From NCBI GenBank assembly GCA_963855995.1, contig OY979727.1, positions 6,095,001-6,159,000 of the forward strand: a DNA stretch of 64,000 bases, read 5' to 3'. Positions 1-45,124 of this stretch are shown here, piece after piece; within the stretch, counting starts at the first letter, position 1, and the number at the start of each line of letters is the position of its first letter. A program made the position numbers and the translations under genes. This DNA is from Muricea muricata. Lineage: Eukaryota > Cnidaria > Anthozoa > Malacalcyonacea > Plexauridae. A model generated the notes under the pieces. The model did not search any database, was not told the DNA's origin, and was given only the letters and a program-made list of their open reading frames with translations.

Positions 1-31
1 ATCGATTTATAACGGCAGTTTTTAGTTGATC

Positions 32-20264: not shown

Positions 20265-21879
20265 ATCGATTTAAGACGGCAGTTTTTAGTTGATCATTTG
20301 AGCATGTTTTTACGCTCAAATCGCTTTAAAAGCCCTTAAAAAGCGTTTTTAATGATTGTAGGATCGTTTCTTTTCTGTTTCAAAGCAAGTTGTAAGTTTC
20401 TCACTTCAACATGTTATTTTGCCCGTGACCATAGTTTGACTGCCGAAAACATGATTCCTGACTTGCTAAGTTCTCTAATTTCCATTTAGAAAGTCCCTTT
20501 TAACTCCGTGATTGCAATATATCATTGCGCTCAACTCCTTCAGTTTGGCCCTTAAAACATCATTTTAAGCTCCAAAACGTTGCCGTGATCGATTTAAGAC
20601 TGCAGTTATTAGTTGATAATTTTAGCATGTTTTTACGCTCAAATCGCTTTAAAAGCGCTTAAAACCCGTTTTTAGTGGTTCTAAGATCGTTTCTGTTCTG
20701 TTTCGAGGTAGGTTGTAAGCTTCTCACTTCAACATGTTATTTTGCTCTTGACGATAGTTTGAGTGACGAAAACAGGATTCCTGACTTACTAAGTTCTCCA
20801 ACTTCCATTTAGAAAGTCCCTTTTAATTCCGTGATTGCAATATATCATTGCGCTCAACTCGTTCAGTTGGGTCCTCAAAAAATCATTTTAAGCTCCAAAA
20901 CGTTGCTGTGATCGATTTAAGACGGCAGTTTTTAGTTGATAATTTGAGCATGTTTTTACGCTCAAATCGCTTTAAAAGCGCTTAAAACGCGTTTTTAATG
21001 CTTCTAAGATCGTTTCTTTTCTGTTTCAAAGAAAGTTGTAAGCTTCTAACTTCAACATGTTATTTTGCTCGTGACAATAATTTGAATGCAGAAAACATGA
21101 TTTCTGACTTACTAAGTTCTCTAATTTCCATTTAGAAAGTCCCTTTTAATTCCGTGATTACAATATATCATTGCGCTCAACTCATTCAGTTTTGCCCTTA
21201 AAACATCATTTTAAGCTCCAAAACGTTGCCGTGATCGATTTAAGACGGCAGTTTTTAGTTGATAATTTGAGCATGTTTTTACGCTCAAATCGCTTTAAAA
21301 GCGCTTAAAACGCGTTTTTAATGCTTCTAAGATCGTTTCTTTTCTGTTTCAAAGTAAGTTGTAAGCTTCTAACTTCAACATGTTATTTTGCTCGTGACAA
21401 TAATTTGAATGCAGAAAACATGATTTCTGACTTACTAAGTTCTCTAATATCCATTTAGAAAGTCCCTTTTAATTCCGTGATTACAATATATCATTGCGCT
21501 CAACTCATTCAGTTTTGCCCTTAAAACATCATTTTAAGCTCCAAAACGTTGCCGTGATCGATTTAAGACGGCAGTTTTTAGTTGATAATTTGAGCATGTT
21601 TTTACGCTCAAATCGCTTTAAAAGCGCTTAAAACGCGTTTTTAATGCTTCTAAGATCGTTTCTTTTCTGTTTCAAAGTAAGTTGTAAGCTTCTAACTTCA
21701 ACATGTTATTTTGCTCGTGACAATAATTTGAATGCGGAAAACATGATTCCTGACTTGCTAAGTTCTCTAATTTCCATTTAGAAAGTCCCTTTTAATTCCG
21801 TGATTGCAATATATCATTGCGCTCAACTCATTCAGTTTTGCCCTTAAAACATTATTTTAAACTCTAAAACAGTGGCATG
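20265..21879 (+). repeat. Shortened U T V V V block
   Basis: Starts at 20265 (U), 20588 (T), 20911, 21234 and 21557 (V). Compared with 7079-9338 it lacks the S monomer (7402-7723) and one of the four V monomers. Both losses remove a whole monomer and keep phase, as expected from unequal exchange between neighbouring units. Confidence 0.82.
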
Positions 21880-24800
21880 ATCGATTTATAACGGCAGTTT
21901 TTAGTTCATCATTTGAGCATGTTTTTACGCTCAAATCGCTTTAAAAGCTCTTAAAACGCGTTTTTAATGATTCTAAGATCGTTTCTGTTCTGTTTCGAGG
22001 TGGGTTGTAAGCTTCTCTTTTCAACATGGTATTTTGCTCGTGACAATAATTTGAGTGCGGAAAACATGATTCCTGACTTGCTAAGTTCTCTAATTTCCAT
22101 TTAGAAAGTCCCTTTTAATTCCGTGATTGCTATATATCATTGCGCTCAACTCATTCAGTTTTGCCCTTAAAACATCATTTTAAACTCCAAAACGTTGCCG
22201 TGATCGATTTAAGACGGCAGTTTTTAGTTGATAATTTGAGCATGTTTTTACGCTCAAATCGCTTTAAAAGCGCTTAAAACGCGTTTTTAATGATTCTAAG
22301 ATCGTTTCTGTTTTGTTTCGAGGTGGGTTGTAAGCTTCTCTTTTCAACATGGTATTTTGCTCGTGACGATAGTCTGAGTGCCGAAAACAGGATTCCTGAC
22401 TTACTAAGTTCTCAAACTTCCATTTAGAAAGTCCCTTTTAGGTCCGTGATTGCTATATATCATTGCACTCAACTCGTTTAGTTTGACTCTGAAAACATCA
22501 TTTTAAGCTCCAAAACGTTGCCGTGATCGATTTAAGACGGAAGTTTTTAGTTGATAATTTGAGCATGTTTTTACGCTCAAATCGCTTTAAAAGCGCTTAA
22601 AACGCGTTTTTAATGATTCTAAGCTCGTTTCTGTTCTGTTTCGAGGTGGGTTGTAAGCTTCTCACTTCAACATGTTATTTTGCTCGTGACGATAATTTGA
22701 GTTCCGAAAACAGGATTCCTGACTTGCTAAGTTCTCTAATTTCCATTTAGAAAGTCCCTTTTAATTCAATGATTGCAATATATCATTGCGCTCAACTCAT
22801 TCAGTTTTGCCCTTAAAACATCATTTTAAGCTCCTAAACGTTGCCGTGATCGATTTAAGACGGCAGTTTTTTGTTGATAATTTGAGCATGTTTTTACGCT
22901 CAAATCGCTTTAAAAGCGCTTAAAACGCGTTTTTAATGATTCTAAGATCGTTTCTGTTCTGTTTCGAGGTGGGTTGTAAGCTTCTCTTTTCAACATGGTA
23001 TTTTGCTCGTGACGATAGTCTGAGTGCCGAAAACAGGATTCCTGACTTACTAAGTTCTCCAACTTCCATTTAGAAAGTCCCTTTTAGGTCCGTGATTGCT
23101 ATATATCATTGCGCTCAACTCGTTTAGTTTGACTCTGAAAACATCATTTTAAGCTCCAAAACGTTGCCGTGATCGATTTAAGACGGAAGTTTTTAGTTGA
23201 TAATTTGAGCATGTTTTTACGCTCAAATCGCTTTAAAAGCGCTTAAAACGCGTTTTTAATGATTCTAAGTTCGTTTCTGTTCTGTTTCGAGGTGGGTTGT
23301 AAGCTTCTCACTTCAACATGTTATTTTGCTCGTGACGATAATTTGAGTTCCGAAAACAGGATTCCTGACTTACTAAGTTCTCCAACTTCCATTTAGACAG
23401 TCGCTTTTAGGTCCGTGATTGCAATATATCATTGCGCTCAACTCATTCAGTTTTGCCCTTAAAACATAATTTTAAGCTCCAAAACGTTGCCGTGATCGAT
23501 TTAAGACGGCAGTTTTTAGTTTATAATTTGAGCATGTTTTTACGCTCAAATCGCTTTAAAAGCGCTTAAAACGCGTTTTTAATGATTCTAAGATCGTTTC
23601 TGTTCTGTTTCGAGGTGGGTTGTAAGCTTCTCTTTTCAACATGGTATTTTGCTCGTGACGATAGTCTGAGTGCCGAAAACAGGATTCCTGACTTACTAAG
23701 TTCTCCAACTTCCATTTAGAAAGTCCCTTTTAGGTCCTTGATTGCTATATATCATTGCGCTCAACTCGTTTAGTTTGACTCTGAAAACATCATTTTAAGC
23801 TCCAAAACGTTGCCGTGATCGATTTAAGACGGAAGTTTTTAGTTGATAATTTGAGCATGTTTTTACGCTCAAATCGCTTTAAAAGCGCTTAAAACGCGTT
23901 TTTAATGATTCTAAACTCGTTTCTGTTCTGTTTCGAGGTGGGTTGTAAGCTTCTCACTTCAACATGTTATTTTGCTCGTGACAATAATTTGAGTTCCGAA
24001 AACAGGATTCCTGACTTACTAAATTCTCCAACTTCCATTTAGAAAGTCGCTTTTAGGTCCGTGATTGCAATATATCATTGCTCTCAACTCGTTCAGTTGG
24101 GCCCTGAAAAAATCATTTTAAGCTCTGAAACGTTGGCGTGATCGATTTAGGACGGCAGTTTTTAGTAGATCATTTGACCATGTTTTTACGCTAAAATCGC
24201 TTCAAAGCACTTAAAACGCGTTTTTAATGCTTCTAAGATCGTTTCTTTTCTGTTTCAAAGTAAGTTGTAAGCTTCTAACTTCAACATGGCAATTTGCTCG
24301 TGACAATAATTTGAGTGCGGAAAACATGATTCCTGACTTGCTAAGTTCTCTAATTTCCATTTAGAAAGTCCCTTTTAAATCCGTGATTGCAATATATCAT
24401 TGCGCTCAACTCATTCAGTTTTGCCCTTAAAACATCATTTTAAGCTCCAAAACGTTGCCGTGATCGATTTAAGACGGCAGTTTTTAGTTGATAATTTGAG
24501 CATGTTTTTACGCTCAAATCGCTTTAAAAGCGCTTAAAACGCGTTTTTAATAATTCTAAGATCGTTTCTGTTCTGTTTCGAGGTGGGTTGTAAGCTTCTC
24601 TTTTCAACATGGTATTTTGCTCGTGACGATAGTCTGAGTGCCGAAAACATGATTCCTGACTTACTAAGTTCTCCAACTTCCATTTAGAAAGTCCCTTTTA
24701 GGTCCGTGATTGCTATATATCATTGCGCTCAACTCGTTTAGTTTGACTCTGAAAACATCATTTTAAGCTCCGAAACGTTGCCGTGATCGATTTAAGACGG

Positions 24801-25108
24801 AAGTTTTTAGTTGATAATTTGAGCATGTTTTTACGCTCAAATCGCTTTAAAAGCGCTTAAAAGGCGTTTTTAATGATTCTAAGCTCGTTTCTGTTCTGTT
24901 TCGAGGTGGGTTGTAAGCTTCTCACTTCAACATGTTATTTTGCTCGTGACGATAATTTGAGTTCCGAAAACAGGATTCCTGACTTGCTAAGTTCTCCAAC
25001 TTCCATTTAGAAAGTCCCTTTTAGGTCCGTGATTGCAATATATCATTGCGCTCAACTCGTCCAGTTTGGCCCTAAAGATATCATTTTAAGCTCTAAAACA
25101 GTGGCATG
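21880..25108 (+). repeat. F-G dimeric HOR region (646-bp period)
   Basis: After an A/F-like monomer at 21880, monomers alternate F (22203, 22849, 23495) and G (22526, 23172, 23818), giving three 646-bp dimers. E, F and G follow at 24141, 24463 and 24786. F is marked by CTTCTCTTTTCAACATGG and GATAGTCTGAG; G by CGGAAG and GATAATTTGAGTTCC. Several G monomers have an E-like tail (TTCAGTTTTGCCC), showing how the dimer arose by skipping A to E. The part from 22526 recurs at 47683-50265. Confidence 0.82.
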
Positions 25109-26723
25109 ATCGATTTATAACGGCAGTTTTTAGTTGATCATTTGAGCATGTTGTTACGTTTAAATCGCTTTAAAAGCGCTTAAAACGCGTTTTTAATGAT
25201 TGTAAGATCGTTTCTTTTCTGTCTCAAAGCAACTTGTAAGCTTCTCACTTCAACATGTTATTTTGCTCGTGACAATAGTTTGAGTGCCGAAAACATTATT
25301 CCTGACTTGCTAAGTTCTCTAGTTTCAATTTAGAAAGTCCCTTTTAGGTCCGTGATTGGAATATATCATTGCGCTCAACTCATTCAGTTTGACTCTGAAA
25401 ACATCATTTTAAGCTCCAAAACGTTGCTGTGATCGATTTAAGACGGAAGTTTTTAGTGTATAATTTGAGCATGTTTTTACGCTCAAATCGCTTTAAAAGC
25501 GCTTAGAACGCGTTTTTAATGATTCTAAGCTCGTTTTTGTTCTGTTTCGAGGTGGGTTGTAAGCTTCTCACTTCAACATGTTATTTTGCTCGTGACGATA
25601 ATTTGAGTTCCGAAAACAGGATTCCTGACTTGCTAAGTTCTCCAACCTCCATTTAGAAAGTCCCTTTTAGGTCCGTGATTGCAATATATCATTGCGCTCA
25701 ACTCGTTCAGTTTGGCCCTAAAAACATCATTTTAAGCTCCAAAACAGTGGCGTGATCGATTTAAGACGGCAGTTTTTAGTTGATCATTTGAGCATGTTTT
25801 TACGCTCAAATCGCTTTAAAAGCGCTTAAAACGCGTTCTTAATGATTCTAAGCTCGTTTCTTTTCTGTCTCAAAGCAAGTTGTAAGCTTCTCAATTCAAT
25901 ATGTTATTTTGCTCGTGACAATAGTTTGAGTGCCGAAAACAAGATTCCTGACTTGCTAAGTTCTCTAGTTTCAATTTAGAAAGTCCCTTTTAGGTCCGTG
26001 ATTGCAATATATCATTGCGCTCAACTCATTCAGTTTGGCCCTTAAAACATCATTTTAAGCTCAAAAACGTTGCCGTGATCGATTTAAGACGGCAGTTATT
26101 AGTTGATAATTTGAGCATGTTTTTACGCTCAAATCGCTTTAAAAGCGCTTAAAACGCGTTTTTAATGATTTTAAGATCGTTTCTGTTCTGTTTCGAGGTG
26201 AATTGTAAGCTTCTCTTTTCAACATGGTATTTTGCTCGTGACGATAGTCTGAGTGCCGAAAACAGGATTCCTGACTTACTAAGTTCTCCAACTTCCATTT
26301 AGAAAGTCCCTTTTAGGTCCGTGATTGCTATATATCATTGCGCTCAACTCGTTTAGTTTGACTCTGAAAACATCATTTTAAGCTCCAAAACGTTGCCGTG
26401 ATCGATTTAAGACGGAAGTTTTTAGTTGATAATTTGAGCATGTTTTTACGTTCAAATCGCTTTAAAAGCGCTTAAAACGCGTTTTTAATGATTCTAAGCT
26501 CGTTTCTGTTCTGTTTCAAGGTGGGTTGTAAGCTTCTCACTTCAACATGTTATTTTGCTCGTGACGATAATTTGAGTTCCGAAAACAGGATTCCTGCCTT
26601 GCTAAGTTCTCCAACTTCCATTTAAAAAGTCCCTTTTAGGTCCGTGATTGCAATATATCATTGCGCCCAACTCGTCCAGTTTGGCCCTAAAAATATCATT
26701 TTAAGCTCTAAAACAGTGGCATG
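25109..26723 (+). repeat. A B C D/F G block, copy of 9985-11599
   Basis: Starts at 25109, 25432, 25755, 26078 and 26401, at a constant offset of 15124 bp from 9985, 10308, 10631, 10954 and 11277. The shared D/F hybrid at 26078 and the unusual ACGTTTAAATCGC in the A monomer confirm common descent. The register continues past 26724 into the six-monomer HOR, so the duplicated segment is about 4.2 kb (to near 29285). Confidence 0.85.
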
Positions 26724-28660
26724 ATCGATTTATAACGGCAGTTTTTAGTTGATCATTTGAGCATGTTTTTACGCTCAAATCGCTTTAAAAGCGCTTAAAA
26801 CGCGTTTTTAATGATTGTAAGATCGTTTCTTTTCTGTCTCAAAGCAACTTGTAAGCTTCTCACTTCAACATGTTATTTTGCTCGTGACAATAGTTTGAGT
26901 GCCGAAAACATTATTCCTGACTTGCTAAGTTCTCTAGTTTCAATTTAGAAAGTCCCTTTTAGGTCCGTGATTGGAATATATCATTGCGCTTAACTCATTC
27001 AGTTTGACTCTGAAAACATCATTTTAAGCTCCAAAACGTTGCTGTGATCGATTTAAGACGGAAGTTTTTAGTTGATAATTTGAGCATGTTTTTACGCTCA
27101 AATCGCTTTAAAAGCGCTTAAAACGCGTTTTTAATGATTCTAAGCTCGTTTCTTTTCTGTCTCAAAGCAAGTTGTAAGCTTCTCACTTCAACATGTTATT
27201 TTGCTCGTGACAATAGTTTGAGTGCCGAAAACATCATTCCTGACTTGCTAAGTTCTCTAGTTTCAATTTAGAAAGTCCCTTTTAGGTCCGTGATTGCAAT
27301 ATATCATTGCGCTCAACTCATTCAGTTTGGCCCTTAAAACATCATTTTAAGCTCAAAAACGTTGCCGTGATCGATTTAAGACGGCAGTTATTAGTTGATA
27401 ATTTGAGCATGTTTTTACGCTCAAATCGCTTTAAAAGCGCTTAAAACGCGTTTTTAGTGGTTCTAAGATGGTTTCTGTTCTGTTTCGAGGTAGGTTGTAA
27501 GCTTCTCACTTCAACATGTTATTTTGCTCTTGACGATAGTTTGAGTGACGAAAACAGGATTCTTGACTTTCTAAGTTCTCCAACTTCCATTTAGAAAGTC
27601 CCTTTTAGGTCCGTGATTGCAATATATCATTGCGCTCAACTCGTTCAGTTGGGCCCTGAAAAAATCATTTTAAGCTCTAAAACGTTGGCGTGATCGATTT
27701 AAGACGGCAGTTTTTAGTAGATCATTTGAGCATGTTTTTACGCTAAAATCGCTTCAAAGCGCTTAAAACGCGTTTTTAATGCTTCTAAGATCGTTTCATT
27801 TCTGTTTCAAAGTAAGTTGTAAGCTTCTAACTTCAACATGTCAATTTGCTCGTGACAATAATTTGAGTGCGGAAAACATGATTCCTGACTTGCTAAGTTC
27901 TCTAATTTCCATTTAGAAAGTCCCTTTTAAATCCGTGATTGCAATATATCATTGCGCTCAACTCATTCAGTTTTGCCCTTAAAACATCATTTTAAGCTCC
28001 AAAACGTTGCCGTGATCGATTTAAGACGGCAGTTTTTAGTTGATAGTTTGAGCATGTTTTTACGCTCAAATCGCTTTAAAAGCGTTTAAAACGCGTTTTT
28101 AATGATTCTAAGATCGTTTCTGTTCTGTTTCGAGGTGAATTGTAAGCTTCTCTTTTCAACATGGTATTTTGCTCGTGACGATAGTCTGAGTGCCGAAAAC
28201 AGGATTCCTGACTTACTAAGTTCTCCAACTTCCATTTAGAAAGTCCCTTTTAGGTCCGTGATTGCTATATATCATTGCGCTCAACTCGTTTAGTTTGACT
28301 CTAAAAACATAATTTTAAGCTCCAAAACGTTGCCGTGATCGATTTAAGACGGAAGTTTTTAGTTGATAATTTGAGCATGTTTTTACGTTCAAATCGCTTT
28401 AAAAGCGCTTAAAACGCGTTTTTAATGATTCTAAGCTCGTTTCTGTTCTGTTTCTAGGTGGGTTGTAAGCTTCTCACTTCAACATGTTATTTTGCTCGTG
28501 ACGATAATTTGAGTTCCGAAAACAGGATTCCTGCCTTGCTAAGTTCTCCAACTTCCATTTAGAAAGTCCCTTTTTTTTCCGTGATTGCAATATATCATTG
28601 CGCTCAACTCGTCCAGTTTGGCCCTAAAAATATTATTTTAAGCTCTAAAACAGTGGCATG
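26724..28660 (+). repeat. Six-monomer HOR variant (A, B/C, D, E, F, G), third copy
   Basis: Starts at 26724, 27047, 27370, 27693, 28015 and 28338; length 1937 bp, as at 1-1937 and 11600-13536. The last monomer has a unique run of eight T at about 28571-28578 where relatives read TTTTAGGT. It directly precedes the seven-monomer array. Confidence 0.85.
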
Positions 28661-30920
28661 ATCGACTTATAACGGCAGTTTTTAGTTGATCATTTGAGCA
28701 TGTTTTTACGCTCAAATCGCTTTAAAAGCGCTTAAAACGCGTTTTTAATGATTGTAAGATCGTTTCTTTTCTGTCTCAAAGCAACTTGTAAGCTTCTCAC
28801 GTCAACATGTTATTTTGCTCGTGACAATAGTTTGAGTGCCGAAAACATTATTCCTGACTTGCTAAGTTCTCTAGTTTCAATTTAGAAAGTCCCTTTTAGG
28901 TCCGTGATTGGAATATATCATTGCGCTCAACTCATTCAGTTTGACTCTGAAAACATCATTTTAAGCTCCAAAACGTTGCTGTGATCGATTTAAAACGGAA
29001 GTTTTTACTTGATAATTTGAGCATGTTTTTACGCTCAAATCGCTTTCAAAGCGCTTAAAACGCGTTTTTAATGATTCTAAGCTCGTTTTTGTTCTGTTTC
29101 GAGGTGGGTTGTAAGCTTCTCACTTCAACATGTTATTTTGCTCGTGACGATAATTTGAGTTCCGAAAACAGGATTCCTGACTTGCTAAGTTCTCCAACCT
29201 CCATTTAGAAAGTCCCTTTTAGGTCCGTGATTGCAATATATCATTGCGCTCAACTCGTTCAGTTTGGCCCTAAAAACATCATTTTAAGCTCCAAAACAGT
29301 GGCGTGATCGATTTAAGACGGCAGTTTTTAGTTGATCATTTGAGCATGTTTTTACGCTCAAATCGCTTTAAAAGCGCTTAAAACGCGTTTTTAATGATTC
29401 TAAGCTCGTTTCTTTTCTGTCTCAAAGCAAGTTGTAAGCTTCTCACTTCAACATGTTATTTTGCTCGTGACAATAGTTTGAGTGCCGAAAACATGATTCC
29501 TGACTTGCTAAGTTCTCTAGTTTCAATTTAGAAAGTCCCTTTTAGGTCCGTGATTGCAATATATCATTGCGCTCAACTCATTTAGTTTGGCCCTTAAAAC
29601 AACATTTTAAGCTCAAAAACGTTGCCGTGATCGATTTAAGACGGCAGTTATTAGTTGATAATTTGAGCATGTTTTTACGCTCAAATCGCTTTAAAAGCGC
29701 TTAAAACGCGTTTTTAGTGGTTCTAAGATCGTTTCTGTTCTGTTTCGAGGTAGGTTGTAAGCTTCTCACTTCAACATGTTATTTTGCTCTTGACGATAGT
29801 TTGAGTGACGAAAACAGGATTCTTGACTTTCTAAGTTCTCCAACTTCCATTTAGAAAAACCCTTTTAGGTCCGTGATTGCAATATATCATTGCGCTTAAC
29901 TCGTTCAGTTGGGCCCTGAAAAAATCATTTCAAGCTCTAAAACGTTTGCGTGATCGATTTAAGACGGCAGTTTTTAGTAGATCATTTGAGCATGTTTTTA
30001 CGCTAAAATCGCTTCAAAGCGCTTAAAACGCGTTTTTAATGCTTCTAAGATCGTTTCTTTTCTGTTTCAAAGTAAGTTGTAAGCTTCTAACTTCAACATG
30101 TCAATTTGCTCGTGACAATAATTTGAGTGCGGAAAACATGATTCCTGACTTGCTAAGTTCTCTAATTTCCATTTAGAAAGTCCCTTTTAAATCCGTGATT
30201 GCAATATATCATTGCGCTCAACTCATTCAGTTTTGCCCTTAAAACATCATTTTAAGCTCCAAAACGTTGCCGTGATCGATTTAAGACGGCAGTTTTTAGT
30301 TGATAATTTGAGCATGTTTTTACGCTCAAATCGCTTTAAAAGCGTTTAAAACGCGTTTTTAATGATTCTAAGATCGTTTCTGTTCTGTTTCGAGGTGAAT
30401 TGTAAGCTTCTCTTTTCAACATGGTATTTTGCTCGTGACGATAGTCTGAGTGCCGAAAACAGGATTCCTGACTTACTAAGTTCTCCAACTTCCATTTAGA
30501 AAGTCCCTTTTAGGTCCGTGATTGCTATATATCATTGCGCTCAACTCGTTTAGTTTGACTCTAAAAACATCATTTTAAGCTCCAAAACGTTGCCGTGATC
30601 GATTTAAGACGGAAGTTTTTAGTTGATAATTTGAGCATGTTTTTACGTTCAAATCGCTTTAAAAGCGCTTAAAACGCGTTTTTAATGATTCTAAGCTCGT
30701 TTCTGTTCTGTTTCAAGGTGGGTTGTAAGCTTCTCACTTCAACATGTTATTTTGCTCGTGACGATAATTTGAGTTCCGAAAACAGGATTCCTGCCTTGCT
30801 AAGTTCTCCAACTTCCATTTAGAAAGTCCCTTTTAGGTCCGTGATTGCAATATATCATTGCGCTCAACTCGTCCAGTTTGGCCCTAAAAATATTATTTTA
30901 AGCTCTAAAACAGTGGCATG
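28661..30920 (+). repeat. Seven-monomer HOR (2260 bp), copy 1
   Basis: Monomers A 28661, B 28984, C 29307, D 29630, E 29953, F 30275, G 30598. Marks: A ATCGACTT and GGAATATATC; B TTTTTACTTGATAA and CTTTCAAAG; C AAGCTCGTTTCTTTTC; D CAGTTATTAG and TAGAAAAACCC; E TAGTAGATC and GCTAAAATC; F AAGCGTTTAAAACG and GAGGTGAATTG; G ACGTTCAAATC and CAAGGTGGG (CTAGGTGGG in the G just before this copy). E is 322 bp, the others 323. Confidence 0.92.
29307..29629 (+). repeat. Reference monomer (type C, 323 bp)
   Basis: Chosen as a typical full-length unit. From the start it holds the boundary ATCGATTT, a T5 tract, the dyad cluster (monomer positions 32-85), a T-rich stretch, the HindIII site near 130, CATGTTATTTTGCTCGTGAC near 145-164, the well conserved CATTTAGAAAGTCCCTTTTA, a short dyad around GCAATATATCATTGC, and a variable tail ending in GTTGCCGTG. 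A hand count gives 63 C, 55 G and 14 CpG, i.e. 36.5% G+C and a CpG observed/expected ratio near 1.3. The length is close to twice 161 bp, compatible with two nucleosomes per monomer, but I see no convincing internal half-repeat. Confidence 0.9.
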
Positions 30921-33180
30921 ATCGACTTATAACGGCAGTTTTTAGTTGATCATTTGAGCATGTTTTTACGCTCAAATCGCTTTAAAAGCGCTTAAAACGC
31001 GTTTTTAATGATTGTAAGATCGTTTCTTTTCTGTCTCAAAGCAACTTGTAAGCTTCTCACGTCAACATGTTATTTTGCTCGTGACAATAGTTTGAGTGCC
31101 GAAAACATTATTCCTGACTTGCTAAGTTCTCTAGTTTCAATTTAGAAAGTCCCTTTTAGGTCCGTGATTGGAATATATCATTGCGCTCAACTCATTCAGT
31201 TTGAATCTGAAAACATCATTTTAAGCTCCAAAACGTTGCTGTGATCGATTTAAAACGGAAGTTTTTACTTGATAATTTGAGCATGTTTTTACGCTCAAAT
31301 CGCTTTCAAAGCGCTTAAAACGCGTTTTTAATGATTCTAAGCTCGTTTTTGTTCTGTTTCGAGGTGGGTTGTAAGCTTCTCACTTCAACATGTTATTTTG
31401 CTCGTGACGATAATTTGAGTTCCGAAAACAGGATTCCTGACTTGCTAAGTTCTCCAACCTCCATTTAGAAAGTCCCTTTTAGGTCCGTGATTGCAATATA
31501 TCATTGCGCTCAACTCGTTCAGTTTGGCCCTAAAAACATCATTTTAAGCTCCAAAACAGTGGCGTGATCGATTTAAGACGGCAGTTTTTAGTTGATCATT
31601 TGAGCATGTTTTTACGCTCAAATCGCTTTAAAAGCGCTTAAAACGCGTTTTTAATGATTCTAAGCTCGTTTCTTTTCTGTCTCAAAGCAAGTTGTAAGCT
31701 TCTCACTTCAACATGTTATTTTGCTCGTGACAATAGTTTGAGTGCCGAAAACATGATTCCTGACTTGCTAAGTTCTCTAGTTTCAATTTAGAAAGTCCCT
31801 TTTAGGTCCGTGATTGCAATATATCATTGCGCTCAACTCATTTAGTTTGGCCCTTAAAACATCATTTTAAGCTCAAAAACGTTGCCGTGATCGATTTAAG
31901 ACGGCAGTTATTAGTTGATAATTTGAGCATGTTTTTACGCTCAAATCGCTTTAAAAGCGCTTAAAACGCGTTTTTAGTGGTTCTAAGATCGTTTCTGTTC
32001 TGTTTCGAGGTAGGTTGTAAGCTTCTCACTTCAACATGTTATTTTGCTCTTGACGATAGTTTGAGTGACGAAAACAGGATTCTTGACTTTCTAAGTTCTC
32101 CAACTTCCATTTAGAAAAACCCTTTTAGGTCCGTGATTGCAATATATCATTGCGCTTAACTCGTTCAGTTGGGCCCTGAAAAAATCATTTCAAGCTCTAA
32201 AACGTTTGCGTGATCGATTTAAGACGGCAGTTTTTAGTAGATCATTTGAGCATGTTTTTACGCTAAAATCGCTTCAAAGCGCTTAAAACGCGTTTTTAAT
32301 GCTTCTAAGATCGTTTCTTTTCTGTTTCAAAGTAAGTTGTAAGCTTCTAACTTCAACATGTCAATTTGCTCGTGACAATAATTTGAGTGCGGAAAACATG
32401 ATTCCTGACTTGCTAAGTTCTCTAATTTCCATTTAGAAAGTCCCTTTTAAATCCGTGATTGCAATATATCATTGCGCTCAACTCATTCAGTTTTGCCCTT
32501 AAAACATCATTTTAAGCTCCAAAACGTTGCCGTGATCGATTTAAGACGGCAGTTTTTAGTTGATAATTTGAGCATGTTTTTACGCTCAAATCGCTTTAAA
32601 AGCGTTTAAAACGCGTTTTTAATGATTCTAAGATCGTTTCTGTTCTGTTTCGAGGTGAATTGTAAGCTTCTCTTTTCAACATGGTATTTTGCTCGTGACG
32701 ATAGTCTGAGTGCCGAAAACAGGATTCCTGACTTACTAAGTTCTCCAACTTCCATTTAGAAAGTCCCTTTTAGGTCCGTGATTGCTATATATCATTGCGC
32801 TCAACTCGTTTAGTTTGACTCTAAAAACATCATTTTAAGCTCCAAAACGTTGCCGTGATCGATTTAAGACGGAAGTTTTTAGTTGATAATTTGAGCATGT
32901 TTTTACGTTCAAATCGCTTTAAAAGCGCTTAAAACGCGTTTTTAATGATTCTAAGCTCGTTTCTGTTCTGTTTCAAGGTGGGTTGTAAGCTTCTCACTTC
33001 AACATGTTATTTTGCTCGTGACGATAATTTGAGTTCCGAAAACAGGATTCCTGCCTTGCTAAGTTCTCCAACTTCCATTTAGAAAGTCCCTTTTAGGTCC
33101 GTGATTGCAATATATCATTGCGCTCAACTCGTCCAGTTTGGCCCTAAAAATATTATTTTAAGCTCTAAAACAGTGGCATG
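30921..33180 (+). repeat. Seven-monomer HOR (2260 bp), copy 2
   Basis: It has the same order and length as copy 1, with every internal boundary shifted by exactly 2260 bp. Only a few differences were noticed by eye, e.g. TTGAATCTG near 31201 where the others read TTGACTCTG. Confidence 0.92.
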
Positions 33181-35440
33181 ATCGACTTATAACGGCAGTT
33201 TTTAGTTGATCATTTGAGCATGTTTTTACGCTCAAATCGCTTTAAAAGCGCTTAAAACGCGTTTTTAATGATTGTAAGATCGTTTCTTTTCTGTCTCAAA
33301 GCAACTTGTAAGCTTCTCACGTCAACATGTTATTTTGCTCGTGACAATAGTTTGAGTGATGAAAACATTATTCCTGACTTGCTAAGTTCTCTAGTTTCAA
33401 TTTAGAAAGTCCCTTTTAGGTCCGTGATTGGAATATATCATTGCGCTCAACTCATTCAGTTTGACTCTGAAAACATCATTTTAAGCTCCAAAACGTTGCT
33501 GTGATCGATTTAAAACGGAAGTTTTTACTTGATAATTTGAGCATGTTTTTACGCTCAAATCGCTTTCAAAGCGCTTAAAACGCGTTTTTAATGATTCTAA
33601 GCTCGTTTTTGTTCTGTTTCGAGGTGGGTTGTAAGCTTCTCACTTCAACATGTTATTTTGCTCGTGACGATAATTTGAGTTCCGAAAACAGGATTCCTGA
33701 CTTGCTAAGTTCTCCAACCTCCATTTAGAAAGTCCCTTTTAGGTCCGTGATTGCAATATATCATTGCGCTCAACTCGTTCAGTTTGGCCCTAAAAACATC
33801 ATTTTAAGCTCCAAAACAGTGGCGTGATCGATTTAAGACGGCAGTTTTTAGTTGATCATTTGAGCATGTTTTTACGCTCAAATCGCTTTAAAAGCGCTTA
33901 AAACGCGTTTTTAATGATTCTAAGCTCGTTTCTTTTCTGTCTCAAAGCAAGTTGTAAGCTTCTCACTTCAACATGTTATTTTGCTCGTGACAATAGTTTG
34001 AGTGCCGAAAACATGATTCCTGACTTGCTAAGTTCTCTAGTTTCAATTTAGAAAGTCCCTTTTAGGTCCGTGATTGCAATATATCATTGCGCTCAACTCA
34101 TTTAGTTTGGCCCTTAAAACATCAATTTAAGCTCAAAAACGTTGCCGTGATCGATTTAAGACGGCAGTTATTAGTTGATAATTTGAGCATGTTTTTACGC
34201 TCAAATCGCTTTAAAAGCGCTTAAAACGCGTTTTTAGTGGTTCTAAGATCGTTTCTGTTCTGTTTCGAGGTAGGTTGTAAGCTTCTCACTTCAACATGTT
34301 ATTTTGCTCTTGACGATAGTTTGAGTGACGAAAACAGGATTCTTGACTTTCTAAGTTCTCCAACTTCCATTTAGAAAAACCCTTTTAGGTCCGTGATTGC
34401 AATATATCATTGCGCTTAACTCGTTCAGTTGGGCCCTGAAAAAATCATTTCAAGCTCTAAAACGTTTGCGTGATCGATTTAAGACGGCAGTTTTTAGTAG
34501 ATCATTTGAGCATGTTTTTACGCTAAAATCGCTTCAAAGCGCTTAAAACGCGTTTTTAATGCTTCTAAGATCGTTTCTTTTCTGTTTCAAAGTAAGTTGT
34601 AAGCTTCTAACTTCAACATGTCAATTTGCTCGTGACAATAATTTGAGTGCGGAAAACATGATTCCTGACTTGCTAAGTTCTCTAATTTCCATTTAGAAAG
34701 TCCCTTTTAAATCCGTGATTGCAATATATCATTGCGCTCAACTCATTCAGTTTTGCCCTTAAAACATCATTTTAAGCTCCAAAACGTTGCCGTGATCGAT
34801 TTAAGACGGCAGTTTTTAGTTGATAATTTGAGCATGTTTTTACGCTCAAATCGCTTTAAAAGCGTTTAAAACGCGTTTTTAATGATTCTAAGATCGTTTC
34901 TGTTCTGTTTCGAGGTGAATTGTAAGCTTCTCTTTTCAACATGGTATTTTGCTCGTGACGATAGTCTGAGTGCCGAAAACAGGATTCCTGACTTACTAAG
35001 TTCTCCAACTTCCATTTAGAAAGTCCCTTTTAGGTCCGTGATTGCTATATATCATTGCGCTCAACTCGTTTAGTTTGACTCTAAAAACATCATTTTAAGC
35101 TCCAAAACGTTGCCGTGATCGATTTAAGACGGAAGTTTTTAGTTGATAATTTGAGCATGTTTTTACGTTCAAATCGCTTTAAAAGCGCTTAAAACGCGTT
35201 TTTAATGATTCTAAGCTCGTTTCTGTTCTGTTTCAAGGTGGGTTGTAAGCTTCTCACTTCAACATGTTATTTTGCTCGTGACGATAATTTGAGTTCCGAA
35301 AACAGGATTCCTGCCTTGCTAAGTTCTCCAACTTCCATTTAGAAAGTCCCTTTTAGGTCCGTGATTGCAATATATCATTGCGCTCAACTCGTCCAGTTTG
35401 GCCCTAAAAATATTATTTTAAGCTCTAAAACAGTGGCATG
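33181..35440 (+). repeat. Seven-monomer HOR (2260 bp), copy 3
   Basis: Exactly 2260 bp after copy 2. Private differences include GAGTGATGAAAA near 33355 (others GAGTGCCGAAAA). ACATCAATTTAA near 34120 is shared only with copy 4. Confidence 0.92.
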
Positions 35441-37700
35441 ATCGACTTATAACGGCAGTTTTTAGTTGATCATTTGAGCATGTTTTTACGCTCAAATCGC
35501 TTTAAAAGCGCTTAAAACGCGTTTTTAATGATTGTAAGATCGTTTCTTTTCTGTCTCAAAGCAACTTGTAAGCTTCTCACGTCAACATGTTATTTTGCTC
35601 GTGACAATAGTTTGAGTGCCGAAAACATTATTCCTGACTTGCTAAGTTCTCTAGTTTCAATTTAGAAAGTCCCTTTTAGGTCCGTGATTGGAATATATCA
35701 TTGCGCTCAACTCATTCAGTTTGACTCTGAAAACATCATTTTAAGCTCCAAAACGTTGCTGTGATCGATTTAAAACGGAAGTTTTTACTTGATAATTTGA
35801 GCATGTTTTTACGCTCAAATCGCTTTCAAAGCGCTTAAAACGCGTTTTTAATGATTCTAAGCTCGTTTTTGTTCTGTTTCGAGGTGGGTTGTAAGCTTCT
35901 CACTTCAACATGTTATTTTGCTCGTGACGATAATTTGAGTTCCGAAAACAGGATTCCTGACTTGCTAAGTTCTCCAACCTCCATTTAGAAAGTCCCTTTT
36001 AGGTCCGTGATTGCAATATATCATTGCGCTCAACTCGTTCAGTTTGGCCCTAAAAACATCATTTTAAGCTCCAAAACAGTGGCGTGATCGATTTAAGACG
36101 GCAGTTTTTAGTTGATCATTTGAGCATGTTTTTACGCTCAAATCGCTTTAAAAGCGCTTAAAACGCGTTTTTAATGATTCTAAGCTCGTTTCTTTTCTGT
36201 CTCAAAGCAAGTTGTAAGCTTCTCACTTCAACATGTTATTTTGCTCGTGACAATAGTTTGAGTGCCGAAAACATGATTCCTGACTTGCTAAGTTCTCTAG
36301 TTTCAATTTAGAAAGTCCCTTTTAGGTCCGTGATTGCAATATATCATTGCGCTCAACTCATTTAGTTTGGCCCTTAAAACATCAATTTAAGCTCAAAAAC
36401 GTTGCCGTGATCGATTTAAGACGGCAGTTATTAGTTGATAATTTGAGCATGTTTTTACGCTCAAATCGCTTTAAAAGCGCTTAAAACGCGTTTTTAGTGG
36501 TTCTAAGATCGTTTCTGTTCTGTTTCGAGGTAGGTTGTAAGCTTCTCACTTCAACATGTTATTTTGCTCTTGACGATAGTTTGAGTGACGAAAACAGGAT
36601 TCTTGACTTTCTAAGTTCTCCAACTTCCATTTAGAAAAACCCTTTTAGGTCCGTGATTGCAATATATCATTGCGCTTAACTCGTTCAGTTGGGCCCTGAA
36701 AAAATCATTTCAAGCTCTAAAACGTTTGCGTGATCGATTTAAGACGGCAGTTTTTAGTAGATCATTTGAGCATGTTTTTACGCTAAAATCGCTTCAAAGC
36801 GCTTAAAACGCGTTTTTAATGCTTCTAAGATCGTTTCTTTTCTGTTTCAAAGTAAGTTGTAAGCTTCTAACTTCAACATGTCAATTTGCTCGTGACAATA
36901 ATTTGAGTGCGGAAAACATGATTCCTGACTTGCTAAGTTCTCTAATTTCCATTTAGAAAGTCCCTTTTAAATCCGTGATTGCAATATATCATTGCGCTCA
37001 ACTCATTCAGTTTTGCCCTTAAAACATCATTTTAAGCTCCAAAACGTTGCCGTGATCGATTTAAGACGGCAGTTTTTAGTTGATAATTTGAGCATGTTTT
37101 TACGCTCAAATCGCTTTAAAAGCGTTTAAAACGCGTTTTTAATGATTCTAAGATCGTTTCTGTTCTGTTTCGAGGTGAATTGTAAGCTTCTCTTTTCAAC
37201 ATGGTATTTTGCTCGTGACGATAGTCTGAGTGCCGAAAACAGGATTCCTGACTTACTAAGTTCTCCAACTTCCATTTAGAAAGTCCCTTTTAGGTCCGTG
37301 ATTGCTATATATCATTGCGCTCAACTCGTTTAGTTTGACTCTAAAAACATCATTTTAAGCTCCAAAACGTTGCCGTGATCGATTTAAGACGGAAGTTTTT
37401 AGTTGATAATTTGAGCATTTTTTTACGTTCAAATCGCTTTAAAAGCGCTTAAAACGCGTTTTTAATGATTCTAAGCTCGTTTCTGTTCTGTTTCAAGGTG
37501 GGTTGTAAGCTTCTCACTTCAACATGTTATTTTGCTCGTGACGATAATTTGAGTTCCGAAAACAGGATTCCTGCCTTGCTAAGTTCTCCAACTTCCATTT
37601 AGAAAGTCCCTTTTAGGTCCGTGATTGCAATATATTATTGCGCTCAACTCGTCCAGTTTGGCCCTAAAATTATTATTTTAAGCTCTAAAACAGTGGCATG
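35441..37700 (+). repeat. Seven-monomer HOR (2260 bp), copy 4
   Basis: Exactly 2260 bp after copy 3, sharing its ACATCAATTTAA variant (near 36380). Private changes cluster in the last monomer: GAGCATTTTTTTACG near 37415, TATATTATTG near 37632 and CCTAAAATTATT near 37662. Confidence 0.92.
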
Positions 37701-39638
37701 ATCGACTTATAACGGCAGTTTTTAGTTGATCATTTGAGCATGTTTTTACGCTCAAATCGCTTTAAAAGCGCTTAAAACGCGTTTTTAATGATTGTAAGAT
37801 CGTTTCTTTTCTGTCTCAAAGCAACTTGTAAGCTTCTCACGTCAACATGTTATTTTGCTCGTGACAATAGTTTGAGTGCCGAAAACATTATTCCTGACTT
37901 GCTAAGTTCTCTAGTTTCAATTTAGAAAGTCCCTTTTAGGTCCGTGATTGGAATATATCATTGCGCTCAACTCATTCAGTTTGACTCTGAAAACATCATT
38001 TTAAGCTCCAAAACGTTGCTGTGATCGATTTAAAACGGAAGTTTTTAGTTGATAATTTGAGCATGTTTTTACGCTCAAATCGCTTTCAAAGCGCTTAAAA
38101 CGCGTTTTTAATGATTCTAAGCTCGTTTTTGTTCTGTTTCGAGGTGGGTTGTAAGCTTCTCACTTCAACATGTTATTTTGCTCGTGACGATAATTTGAAT
38201 TCCGAAAACAGGATTCCTGACTTGCTAAGTTCTCCAACCTCCATTTAGAAAGTCCCTTTTAGGTCCGTGATTGCAATATATCATTGCGCTCAACTCGTTC
38301 AGTTTGGCCCTAAAAACATCATTTTAAGCTCCAAAACAGTGGCGTGATCGATTTAAGACGGCAGTTTTTAGTTGATCATTTGAGCATGTTTTTACGCTCA
38401 AATCGCTTTAAAAGCGCTTAAAACGCGTTTTTAATGATTCTAAGCTCGTTTCTTTTCTGTCTCAAAGCAAGTTGTAAGCTTCTCACTTCAACATGTTATT
38501 TTGCTCGTGACAATAGTTTGAGTGCCGAAAACATGATTCCTGACTTGCTAAGTTCTCTAGTTTCAATTTAGAAAGTCCCTTTTAGGTCCGTGATTGCAAT
38601 ATATCATTGCGCTCAACTCATTTAGTTTGGCCCTTAAAACATCTTTTTAAGCTCAAAAACGTTGCCGTGATCGATTTAAGACGGCAGTTATTAGTTGATA
38701 ATTTGAGCATGTTTTTACGCTCAAATCGCCTTAAAAGCGCTTAAAACGCGTTTTTAGTGGTTCTAAGATCGTTTCTGTTCTGTTTCGAGGTAGGTTGTAA
38801 GCTTCTCACTTCAACATGTTATTTTGCTCTTGACGATAGTTTGAGTGACGAAAACAGGATTCTTGACTTTCTAAGTTCTCCAACTTCCATTTAGAAAGTC
38901 CCTTTTAGGTCCGTGATTGCAATATATCATTGCACTCAACTCATTTAGTTTTGCCCTTAAAACATCATTTTAAGCTCCAAAACGTTGCCGTGATCGATTT
39001 AAGACGGCAGTTTTTAGTTGATAATTTGAGCATGTTTTTACGCTCAAATCGCTTTAAAAGCGTTTAAAACGCGTTTTTAATGATTCTAAGATCGTTTCTG
39101 TTCTGTTTCGAGGTGAATTGTAAGCTTCTCTTTTCAACATGGTATTTTGCTCGTGACGATAGTCTGAGTGCCGAAAACAGGATTCCTGACTTACTAAGTT
39201 CTCCAACTTCCATTTAGAAAGTCCCTTTTAGGTCCGTGATTGCTATATATCATTGCGCTCAACTCGTTTAGTTTGACTCTAAAAACATCATTTTAAGCTC
39301 CAAAACGTTGCCGTGATCGATTTAAGACGGAAGTTTTTAGTTGATAATTTGAGCATGTTTTTACGTTCAAATCGCTTTAAAAGCGCTTAAAACGCGTTTT
39401 TAATGATTCTAAGCTCGTTTCTGTTCTGTTTCAAGGTGGGTTGTAAGCTTCTCACTTCAACATGTTATTTTGCTCGTGACGATAATTTGAGTTCCGAAAA
39501 CAGGATTCCTGCCTTGCTAAGTTCTCCAACTTCCATTTAGAAAGTCCCTTTTAGGTCCGTGATTGCAATATATCATTGCGCTCAACTCGTCCAGTTTGGC
39601 CCTAAAAACATCATTTTAAGCTCTAAAACAGTGGCATG
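37701..39638 (+). repeat. Six-monomer derivative (A, B, C, D/E, F, G) closing the 7-mer array
   Basis: Starts at 37701, 38024, 38347, 38670, 38993 and 39316; length 1938 bp. The monomer at 38670 begins as D (CAGTTATTAG, GCTCTTGACG) and ends as E (TTTAGTTTTGCCCTTAAAAC near 38945), so one monomer was lost by fusing D to E. Here B reads TTTTTAGTTGATAA rather than TTTTTACTTGATAA. This fusion differs from the B/C fusion before the array. Confidence 0.85.
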
Positions 39639-40928
39639 ATCGATTTATAACGGCAGTTTTTAGTTGATCATTTGAGCATGTTTTTACGCTCAAATCGCTT
39701 TAAAAGCGCTTAAAACGCGTTTTTAATGATTGTAAGATCGTTTCTTTTCTGTCTCAAAGCAACTTGTAAGCTTCTCACGTCAACATGTTATTTTGCTCGT
39801 GACAATAGTTTGAGTGCCGAAAACATTATTCCTGACTTGCTAAGTTCTCTAGTTTCAATTTAGAAAGTCCCTTTTAGGTACGTGATTGGAATATATCATT
39901 GCGCTTAACTCATTCAGTTTGACTCTGAAAACATCATTTTAAGCTCCAAAACGTTGCTGTGATCGATTTATAACGGCAGTTTTTAGTTGATCATTTGAGC
40001 ATGTTTTTACGCTCAAATCGCTTTAAAAGCGCTTAAAACGCGTTTTTAATGATTCTAAGCTCGTTTCTTTTCTGTCTCAAAGCAAGTTGTAAGCTTCTCA
40101 CTTCAACATGTTATTTTGCTCGTGACAATAGTTTGAGTGCCGAAAACATGATTCCTGACTTGCTAAGTTCTCTAGTTTCAATTTAGAAAGTCCCTTTTAG
40201 GTGCGTGATTGCAATATATCATTGCCTCAACTCATTCAGTTTGGCCCTTAAAACATCATTTTAAGCTCAAAAACGTTGCCGTGATCGATTTAAGACGGCA
40301 GTTATTAGTTGATAATTTGAGCATGTTTTTACGCTCAAATCGCTTTAAAAGCGCTTAAAACGCGTTTTTAGTGGTTCTAAGATCGTTTCTGTTCTGTTTC
40401 GAGGTAGGTTGTAAGCTTCTCACTTCAACATGTTATTTTGCTCTTGACGATAGTTTGAGTGACGAAAACAGGATTCTTGACTTTCTAAGTTCTCCAACTT
40501 CCATTTAGAAAGTCCCTTTTAGGTCCGTAATTGCAATATATCATTGCGCTTAACTCGTTCAGTTGGGCCCTGAAAAAATAATTTCAAGCTCTAAAACGTT
40601 TGCGTGATCGATTTAAGACGGCAGTTTTTAGTAGATCATTTGAGCATGTTTTTACGCTAAAATCGCTTCAAAGCGCTTAAAACGCGTTTTTAATGCTTCT
40701 AAGATCGTTTCTTTTCTGTTTCAAAGTAAGTTGTAAGCTTCTAACTTCAACATGTCAATTTGCTCGTGACAATAATTTGAGTGCGGAAAACATGATTCCT
40801 GACTTGCTAAGTTCTCTAATTTCCATTTAGAAAGTCCCTTTTAAATCCGTGATTGCAATATATCATTGCGCTCAACTCATTCAGTTTTGCCCTTAAAACA
40901 TCATTTTAAGCTCCAAAACGTTGCCGTG
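39639..40928 (+). repeat. A, A/C hybrid, D, E monomers
   Basis: Starts at 39639, 39962, 40284 and 40607. The 39962 monomer begins as A (TTTATAACGGCAG) and ends as C (AAGCTCGTTTC, GCAAGTTG), removing B. It is 322 bp because ATTGCGCTC has become ATTGCCTC. The matching region at 57344-58956 has five monomers and retains B. Confidence 0.8.
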
Positions 40929-42542
40929 ATCGATTTAAGACGACAGTTTTTAGTTGATAATTGAGCATGTTTTTACGCTCAAATCGCTTTAAAAGCACTT
41001 AAAACGCGTTTTTAATGATTCTAAGATCGTTTCTGTTCTGTTTCGAGGTGGGTTGTAAGCTTCTCTTTTCAACATGGTATTTTGCTCGTGACGATAGTCT
41101 GAGTGCCGAAAACATGATTCCTGAGTTACTAAGTTCTCCAACTTCCATTTAGAAAGTCCCTTTTAGGTCTGTGATTGCAATATATCATTGCGCTCAACTC
41201 GTCCAGTTTGGCCCTAAAAACACCATTTTAAGCTCTAAAACAGTGGCATGATCGATTTATAACGGCCGTTTTTAGTTGATCATTTGAGCATGTTTTTACG
41301 CTCAAATCGCTTTAAAAGCGCTTAAAACGCGTTTTTAATGATTGTAAGATCGTTTCTTTTTTGTCTCAAAGCAACTTGTAAGCTTCTCACTTCAACATGT
41401 TATTTTGCTTGTGACAATAGTTTGAGTGCCGAAAACATGATTCCTGACTTGCTAAGTTCTCTAGTTTCAATTTAGAAAGTCCCTTTTAGCTCCGTGATTG
41501 CAATATATCATTGCGCTCAACTCATTCAGTTTGGCCCTTAAAACATCATTTTAAGCTCCAAAACGTTGCCGTGATCGATTTAAGACTGCAGTTATTAGTT
41601 GATAATTTGAGCATGTTTTTACGCTCAAATCGCTTTAAAAGCGCTTAAAACCCGTTTTTAGTGGTTCTAAGATCGTTTCTGTTCTGTTTCGAGGTAGGTT
41701 GTAAGCTTCTCACTTCAACATGTTATTTTGCTCTTGACGATAGTTTGAGTGACGAAAACAGGATTCCTGACTTACTAAGTTCTCCAACTTCCATTTAGAA
41801 AGTCCCTTTTACGTCCATGATTGCAATATATCATTGCGCTGAACTCGTTCAGTATTGCTCTAAAAACATCATTTTAAGCTCTAAAACAGTGGCGTGATCG
41901 ATTTAAGACGGCAGTTTTTAGTTGATAATTTGAGCATGTTTTTACGCTCAAATCGCTTCAAAAGCCCTTAAAACGCGTTTTTAATGATTGTAAGATCGTT
42001 TCTTTTCTGTCTCAAAGCAAGTTGTAAGCTTCTCACTTCAACATGTTATTTTCCTCGTGACAATAGTTTGAGTGCCGAAAACATGATCCCTGACTTGCTA
42101 AGTTCTCTAATTTCCATTTAGAAAGTCCCTTCTAGGTCCGTGACTGCAATATATCATTGCGCTCAACTCGTTAAGTTTTGGCCCTGAAAACATCATTTTA
42201 AGCTCTAAAACGTTGGCGTGATCGATTTAAGACGGAAGTTTTTAGTAGATCATTTGACCATGTTTTTACGCTAAAATCGCTTCAAAGCGCTTAAAACGCG
42301 TTTTTAATGCTTCTAAGATCGTTTCTTTTCTGTTTCAAAGTAAGTTGTAAGCTTCTAACTTCAACATGTCAATTTGCTCGTGACAATAATTTGAGTGCGG
42401 AAAACGTGATTCCTGACTTGCTAAGTTCTCTAATTTCCATTTAGAAAGTCCCTTTTAAATCCGTGATTGCAATATATCATTGCGCTCAACTCATTCAGTT
42501 TTGCCCTTAAAACATCATTTTAAGCTCCAAAACGTTGCCGTG
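40929..42542 (+). repeat. Five-monomer HOR (1614 bp: F A' T K E'), copy 1
   Basis: Starts at 40929, 41251, 41574, 41897 and 42221. F here has GACGACAG and a one-base loss (GATAATTGAGC, 322 bp); A' has AACGGCCG; T has CTGCAGTTATTAG; K has GATCCCTGAC; E' has TAGTAGATCATTTGACC. The unit recurs 1614 bp later and again at 58957-60570. Confidence 0.88.
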
Positions 42543-44156
42543 ATCGATTTAAGACGACAGTTTTTAGTTGATAATTGAGCATGTTTTTACGCTCAAATCG
42601 CTTTAAAAGCACTTAAAACGCGTTTTTAATGATTCTAAGATCGTTTCTGTTCTGTTTCGAGGTGGGTTGTAAGCTTCTCTTTTCAACATGGTATTTTGCT
42701 CGTGACGATAGTCTGAGTGCCGAAAACATGATTCCTGAGTTACTAAGTTCTCCAACTTCCATTTAGAAAGTCCCTTTTAGGTCTGTGATTGCAATATATC
42801 ATTGCGCTCAACTCGTCCAGTTTGGCCCTAAAAACACCATTTTAAGCTCTAAAACAGTGGCATGATCGATTTATAACGGCCGTTTTTAGTTGATCATTTG
42901 AGCATGTTTTTACGCTCAAATCGCTTTAAAAGCGCTTAAAACGCGTTTTTAATGATTGTAAGATCGTTTCTTTTTTGTCTCAAAGCAACTTGTAAGCTTC
43001 TCACTTCAACATGTTATTTTGCTTGTGACAATAGTTTGAGTGCCGAAAACATGATTCCTGACTTGCTAAGTTCTCTAGTTTCAATTTAGAAAGTCCCTTT
43101 TAGCTCCGTGATTGCAATATATCATTGCGCTCAACTCATTCAGTTTGGCCCTTAAAACATCATTTTAAGCTCCAAAACGTTGCCGTGATCGATTTAAGAC
43201 TGCAGTTATTAGTTGATAATTTGAGCATGTTTTTACGCTCAAATCGCTTTAAAAGCGCTTAAAACCCGTTTTTAGTGGTTCTAAGATCGTTTCTGTTCTG
43301 TTTCGAGGTAGGTTGTAAGCTTCTCACTTCAACATGTTATTTTGCTCTTGACGATAGTTTGAGTGACGAAAACAGGATTCCTGACTTACTAAGTTCTCCA
43401 ACTTCCATTTAGAAAGTCCCTTTTACGTCCATGATTGCAATATATCATTGCGCTGAACTCGTTCAGTATTGCTCTAAAAACATCATTTTAAGCTCTAAAA
43501 CAGTGGCGTGATCGATTTAAGACGGCAGTTTTTAGTTGATAATTTGAGCATGTTTTTACGCTCAAATCGCTTCAAAAGCCCTTAAAACGCGTTTTTAATG
43601 ATTGTAAGATCGTTTCTTTTCTGTCTCAAAGCAAGTTGTAAGCTTCTCACTTCAACATGTTATTTTCCTCGTGACAATAGTTTGAGTGCCGAAAACATGA
43701 TCCCTGACTTGCTAAGTTCTCTAATTTCCATTTAGAAAGTCCCTTCTAGGTCCGTGACTGCAATATATCATTGCGCTCAACTCGTTAAGTTTTGGCCCTG
43801 AAAACATCATTTTAAGCTCTAAAACGTTGGCGTGATCGATTTAAGACGGAAGTTTTTAGTAGATCATTTGACCATGTTTTTACGCTAAAATCGCTTCAAA
43901 GCGCTTAAAACGCGTTTTTAATGCTTCTAAGATCGTTTCTTTTCTGTTTCAAAGTAAGTTGTAAGCTTCTAACTTCAACATGTCAATTTGCTCGTGACAA
44001 TAATTTGAGTGCGGAAAACATGATTCCTGACTTGCTAAGTTCTCTAATTTCCATTTAGAAAGTCCCTTTTAAATCCGTGATTGCAATATATCATTGCGCT
44101 CAACTCATTCAGTTTTGCCCTTAAAACATCATTTTAAGCTCCAAAACGTTGCCGTG
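42543..44156 (+). repeat. Five-monomer HOR (1614 bp), copy 2
   Basis: Starts at 42543, 42865, 43188, 43511 and 43835, each exactly 1614 bp after copy 1. By eye the two differ only at isolated bases, e.g. GGAAAACGTG near 42400 versus GGAAAACATG near 44015. Downstream the series changes to an F/N hybrid at 44157. Confidence 0.88.
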
Positions 44157-45124
44157 ATCGATTTAAGACGGCAGTTTTTAGTTGATAATTTGAGCATGTT
44201 TTTACGCTCAAATCGCTTTAAAAGCGCTTAAAACGCGTTTTTAATGATTCTAAGCTCGTTTCTGTTCTGTTTCGAGGTGGGTTGTAAGCTTCTCTTTTCA
44301 ACATGGTATTTTGCTCGTGACGATAGTCTGAGTGCCGAAAACATGATTCCTGACTTACTAAGTTCTCCAACTTCCATTTAGAAAGTCCCTTTTAGGTCCG
44401 TGATTGCAATATATCATTGCGCTCAACTCGTTAAGTGTTGGCCCTGAAAACATCATTTTAAGCTCTAAAACGTTGCCGTGATCGATTTAAGACGGCAGTT
44501 TTTAGTTGATAATTTGAGCATGTTTTTACGCTAAAATTGCTTCAAAATCGCTTAAATCGCGTTTTTAATGATTCCAAGATCGTTTCTTTTCTGTTTCAAA
44601 GTAAGTTGCAAGCTTCTCACCTCAACATGTTATTTTGCTCGTGACGATAGTTTGAGTGCTGAAAACAGGATTCCTGACTTACTAAGTTCTCCAACTTCCA
44701 TTTAGAAAGTCCCTTTTTGATCCGTATTGCAGTTTATCATTGGGCTCAACTCGTTCAGTTTGGCCCTCAAAACATCATTTTAAGCTCTAAAACGTAGCCG
44801 TCATCGATTTAACGCGGAAGTTTTTAGTTGAAAATTTGAACATATTTTTACGCTCAAATCGCTTTAAAAGCCCTGAAAACACGTTTTTAATTATTCTAAG
44901 ATCGTTTATTTTCTGTCTCAAAGCATGTTGTAAGCTTCTCACTCAACATGTTATTTTGCTCGTGACAATAGTTTTAGTTCCGAAAACATGATTCCTGACT
45001 TGCTAAGTTCTCTAGTTACCATTTAGAAAGTCGCTTTTAGGTCCGTGATTGCAATATATCATTGCGCTCAACTCGTTCAATTTGGCCCTGAAAACATCAT
45101 TTTATGCTCTAAAACGTTGGCATG

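Follow-up and report, generated by a model that had tools for sequence, protein, structure and literature searches.

Recent multiplication of a seven-monomer unit within a 323-bp satellite array of Muricea muricata

Four near-identical 2260-bp units, each of seven monomers, stand in tandem in a contig of the anthozoan Muricea muricata (GenBank assembly GCA_963855995.1, contig OY979727.1, positions 6,095,001 to 6,159,000). This raises the question of whether the block is a recently amplified higher-order repeat (HOR) and, if so, whether it marks the active centromere of its chromosome. A sequence-only reading had proposed the first and suggested the second. Here the question is taken up across the window, by which we mean the entire 64,000-nucleotide stretch analysed.

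The 323-bp monomer and its array

Tandem Repeats Finder (TRF) returned window positions 1-64000 as a single row with a period of 323, 198.7 copies and 89% matches; the array ends beyond the window. Monomers were called by wraparound alignment to a cyclic consensus, phased on position 28661, which gave 197 full monomers (145 of 323 bp, 36 of 322, 10 of 324 and 6 of 297; the bases before 324 and after 63772 are left out of this count). These are numbered m1 onwards and have a mean pairwise identity of 0.906. Neither TRF nor the monomer segmentation found a non-satellite element interrupting the 64 kb. The window contained no open reading frame of at least 150 residues (ATG, GTG or TTG starts, bacterial code, open ends excluded) and no Rfam family at the gathering threshold. 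Exact searches with a 38-mer and a 20-mer in viral_contigs and with a 24-mer in genome_contigs gave no match, nor did the satellite match plasmids by blastn; misses in such viral, prokaryote and plasmid collections are expected and carry little weight. In a literature search by length or sequence, of main texts and with few subscription journals, we recognised no earlier description of a 323-bp monomer, from which its novelty does not follow. The number 323 is absent from the available main text of a comparative survey (PMC4053949), and a ryegrass genome paper was rejected as a record of the monomer, its "323 bp" being the tail of "8,323 bp".

The observed/expected ratio in the window was 1.35 for CpG and 1.48 for GpC. 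Among young copies (families of four or more, at sites with a 70% majority only) there were 10 transitions in 4340 at CpG versus 29 in 13308 at other C and G. As CpG is undepleted and shows no excess of transitions, there is no trace of methylation-driven decay. Nucleosome-like AA/TT/TA periodicity in the window had almost no power at 10.0-10.6 bp, the strongest periods being 9.5 and 13.5 bp; the power spectrum of a periodic array falls only at fractions of 323, and those near 10 bp were outside the ten strongest listed.

The monomer has an internal structure of its own. At a cyclic shift of 108 the consensus matches itself at 0.464, whereas 2000 shuffles reached at most 0.384 and 2000 first-order Markov sequences at most 0.412. 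Three copies of a unit of about 108 bp thus make up the 323-bp monomer, an old trimer. The most conserved 20-mers lie within phase 32-62, around the dyad TTTGAGC...GCTCAAA, and phase 253-273. The class-A monomer (classes are given below) at 28661-28983, folded as single-stranded DNA, has the dyad hairpin in its centroid structure, with a z of -1.83 and 3 of 100 shuffles folding as well as the monomer. The three core stretches jointly rank 6 among 323 circular shifts, at coordinates picked post hoc from the conservation profile. A conserved core recurring every ~108 bp was rejected, the best self-shift of the profile being 161 and not 108. As a separate observation, the conserved dyad core spans phase 33-56, and a conserved stretch at phase 248-272 sits at the corresponding place in the third ~108-bp subunit; this may be a bound site.

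The first principal component divides the 197 monomers into 98 of class A and 99 of class B, with identities of 0.928 within A, 0.924 within B and 0.887 between classes. At six diagnostic sites 162 of the 197 monomers are pure A or B, and the remaining 35 combine markers of both or have some other base; among 30 family representatives 21 are pure. In the representatives the first component took a share of 0.19, which none of 500 column shuffles approached (0.084 at most), and it was less cleanly bimodal than among the 197. The second component (0.178) was nearly as large as the first, so that the two classes do not account for all of the variation. Neighbouring monomers alternate between A and B at 134 of 196 steps (shuffled mean 98.4, sd 7.1). 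When duplicate neighbour pairs were counted once, at three family thresholds, the counts became 46/78, 31/52 and 25/41 (p = 0.051, 0.117 and 0.063). A strict A/B dimer organisation, attractive from the full count, was not adopted, its signal weakening to p values of 0.05-0.12.

Both classes include monomers shortened to 297 bp (Table 1). The same 26-bp deletion falls at the same alignment columns in all six, the junctions are identical in the three that were read (one B, two A), and all six lie outside the seven-monomer block. The best reading of the same deletion in both classes is that one deletion was moved between them by exchange.

Table 1 Features of the satellite array (window coordinates; m1-m7 were compared with block copies m84-m90, m91-97, m98-104, m105-111 and m112-118)
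Feature	Positions	Remarks
Uninterrupted satellite array, head-to-tail, 323-bp monomer	1..64000	TRF and monomer segmentation
Large duplication, first half	1..7130	0.9982 to 11600-18729; starts at window edge
Heptamer, rotated, single copy	324..2583	m1-m7; 0.9885-0.9898 to the five block copies
297-bp monomers, 26-bp deletion	6782-7078, 18381-18677, 19968-20264, 45125-45421, 54464-54760, 63476-63772	Three class A, three class B
Superunit segment	9370..14395	Repeated at 24494-29519, identity 0.988
Large duplication, second half	11600..18729	11,599-bp spacing, 7130 bp
Heptamer, single copy in second superunit	11923..14182	m37-m43; 0.9885-0.9898 to the block copies listed
Full 2260-bp periodicity	27044..38933	11,890 bp = 5.26 units, left edge decayed
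Heptamer unit 1	28661..30920	A-B-A-B-A-B-B
Heptamer unit 2	30921..33180	2 differences vs unit 1
Heptamer unit 3	33181..35440	4 differences vs unit 1
Heptamer unit 4	35441..37700	5 differences vs unit 1
Five-monomer tandem, lag 1614	40586..44190	Identity 0.997
Heptamer, second site, 1.24 units	55147..57947	0.9946-0.9954 to core units

The 2260-bp seven-monomer block

The sequence-only reading had proposed four tandem 2260-bp units, and its starts (28661, 30921, 33181, 35441 and 37701) were all recovered as monomer starts by our segmentation. In each unit (hereafter heptamer) one monomer is 322 bp long and the other six are 323 bp. Few base differences per unit had also been claimed, and we found that the six pairs of units differ at 2, 4, 5, 4, 5 and 5 of 2260 positions, with 8 variable positions across the four core units and at least one private difference in each unit. 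Monomers in the same slot of different units have an identity of 0.9982 (42 pairs, 0.991-1.0) versus 0.906 for monomers within a unit (84 pairs, 0.867-0.960); those that differ in both slot and unit also stand at 0.906 (252 pairs). Monomers a unit apart are thus far more alike than those within a unit, as that reading had expected.

The placement of the block at 28661-37700 was real but understated, in that the periodicity extends beyond it on both sides (Table 1). At lag 2260, positions 27044-36673 align to 29304-38933 with an identity of 0.9963 over 9630 bp. Against the core consensus, 17 of 1617 positions mismatch in the left partial unit and 6 of 1233 in the right: the core is young, its left edge older and decayed. 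The block is a genuine HOR that has been recently multiplied: its units are far more alike than their internal monomers, and an HOR calls for at least two in-register head-to-tail copies, of which there are 5.26 here at lag 2260.

The array resembles human alpha-satellite HORs in that its multimers resemble one another much more closely than do the monomers within them, in having two classes and in the nested derivation of multimers, as set out in the available part of PMC8997354. The differences are several. The human monomer is about 171 bp, a length that the 323-bp monomer does not match, and human monomers are 50-70% alike versus an average of 90.6% here. Human B-class monomers carry the CENP-B box, whereas neither of two forms of the motif had a match with at most 1 mismatch on either strand of the window; the looser of the two gave 28 matches at up to 2 mismatches, a count that stands without a shuffle control. 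Human arrays alternate between A and B, whereas alternation here is not clearly significant once duplicate neighbour pairs are counted once, and human arrays have one dominant HOR whereas this one is a mosaic. Arabidopsis CEN178-type arrays are a patchwork of short duplications, a description that also suits the present array; they differ in monomer length, and the likeness is one of description rather than of compared sequences. Local homogenisation among similar monomers and much variant diversity are further shared traits, according to the accessible text of a plant review (PMC11579429). The conversion of an older multimer into a new basic monomer has a parallel in the 343-bp monomer of New World monkeys, although that is a dimer of 171 bp and the present monomer a trimer of ~108 bp. 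Switchgrass HOR units of 1131 bp contain shortened monomers, whereas the six found here are outside the heptamer block (both cases from the accessible sections of PMC4053949).

Young duplications and a longer superunit

The earlier claim of a recently amplified HOR is upheld by the near-identity of the units; the special status that it implied for the block, as the youngest and most homogeneous core, is unsupported, other duplicates in the window being about as young. Ungapped duplicates of at least 1 kb cover 98.9% of the window at an identity of at least 98.5%, and 73.1% of it at 99.5% or more with the heptamer block included. Outside the block 35.9 of 52.1 kb is duplicated at 99.5% or more (arithmetic from the intervals). 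There are 158 runs of at least two consecutive monomers with an identity of at least 0.975 to another run, and the duplicates are nested within one another at many lags. Among the 60 longest of the 158 runs, the longest beyond the heptamer block pairs m1-21 with m37-57 at a lag of 11,599 bp. Positions 51591-54988 match 60603-64000 at 0.998. The 7.1-kb duplication and the five-monomer tandem are roughly as young as the heptamer block.

The heptamer also occurs elsewhere in the window, twice as a single copy and once at a second site (Table 1), where 11 monomers at 55407-58956 match the block at about 0.994. By monomer-level local alignment m1-43 is collinear with m37-90 across several insertions. 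Superunit 1 is m1-36 (36 monomers, 11.6 kb) and superunit 2 is m37-83 (47 monomers, 15.1 kb). A third copy, recognised mainly by its opening monomers, opens at m84, the start of the heptamer block. The heptamer thus seems to be nested inside a superunit of 11.6-15.1 kb. The 0.998 identity of parts of superunits 1 and 2 makes their duplication about as recent as that of the heptamer.

At 8047-9338, 20911-21879 and 46391-47359 three or four monomers of one family (family 8 at 0.975) stand side by side, which may be a single-monomer mode of amplification alongside the multi-monomer one.

History of the array and the centromere question

We consider it likely that the window is part of a satellite, probably centromeric or pericentromeric, in which a trimeric monomer split into A and B classes, was reshuffled by out-of-register copying of multi-monomer segments and, very recently, had one heptamer amplified. 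The proposed route begins with a unit of ~108 bp becoming a trimer, the 323-bp monomer, and with divergence of the monomers into the linked-variant classes A and B. Repeated copying of multi-monomer segments out of register would then have produced the mosaic, and the superunit, some 36-47 monomers or 11.6-15.1 kb long, would have been duplicated. Finally, at the apparent start of superunit copy 3, an ABABABB segment would have been tandemly amplified to about 5.3 copies; we infer this order of superunit duplication followed by heptamer amplification, whereas the trimer origin, the nested duplicates, the monomers that mix class markers and the decay of the left edge unit are seen in the sequence itself. 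The copying may have been unequal sister-chromatid exchange or break-induced replication, which the data do not separate. Out-of-register exchange and break-induced replication have both been reported for satellites (available part of PMC8997354). The 64 kb would then record satellite growth at the levels of the 108-bp subunit, the 323-bp trimer, the A/B classes, the heptamer and the 11.6-15-kb superunit, and such a multi-level record should be useful for testing how HORs originate.

A role of the array in seating the kinetochore would follow from the type of sequence only. It is somewhat unlikely that the array is instead a non-centromeric satellite that duplicates in the same way, either subtelomeric or part of a heterochromatic knob. 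This would fit a sequence that has no visible kinetochore-specific mark and no CENP-B-box-like match at the stringency given above, and that runs for 64 kb uninterrupted by any other element, but long HOR arrays have been described mostly from centromeres.

The heptamer block is very unlikely to be a homogeneous HOR core that, as the youngest, marks where the chromosome's active centromere lies. Its units differ by just 0.1-0.2%, and the consulted parts of two sources offer precedents: in Arabidopsis, and similarly in rice, CENH3 enrichment falls on those monomers that are most homogeneous (PMC11579429), and CENP-A is found on recently homogenised dimers in some human chromosomes (PMC8997354). 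On human chromosome 8, however, CENP-A occupies a mixed layer next to the nearly identical 7-monomer one rather than that layer itself (PMC8997354, same portion), and hence the rule that the youngest core is the active centromere has mixed backing in these papers. The block is only 11.9 kb long, and it shares its approximate age with other segments of the window. Given an identity of 0.9982 over 7130 bp elsewhere and 73% of the window duplicated at 99.5% or more, homogeneity does not single out the heptamer block within the window. A neat local HOR is not by itself a centromere core. That the assembler inflated or misjoined near-identical 2260-bp units is most improbable: near-identical repeats of 2-11 kb are difficult to assemble, but each of the four units has its own difference(s) among the 8 variable sites, decay marks the left edge, and a separate site at 55147-57947 also carries the heptamer.

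Exchange may also have favoured certain places within the monomer. Duplication edges fell in phase 205-310, an interval set after seeing the edges, in 54% of cases versus 38% when breakpoints placed at random were snapped to diagnostic sites in a simulation (p about 0.002; 81 of 82 unique edges, one without a monomer phase being dropped), related events being non-independent. With each phase counted once the values were 44% versus 36% (p = 0.04; circular test 0.03). We regard it as quite unlikely that evolution of the array is site-biased, with breakpoints and the 26-bp deletion preferring phase ~205-310 and sparing the conserved dyad core, to which stretches of the two remaining ~108-bp subunits are recognisably related. 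Were the bias real, it would bear on the position of exchange inside the monomer and would suit a monomer in which a protein binds the core, or DNA structure marks it, with the linker as the site of exchange.
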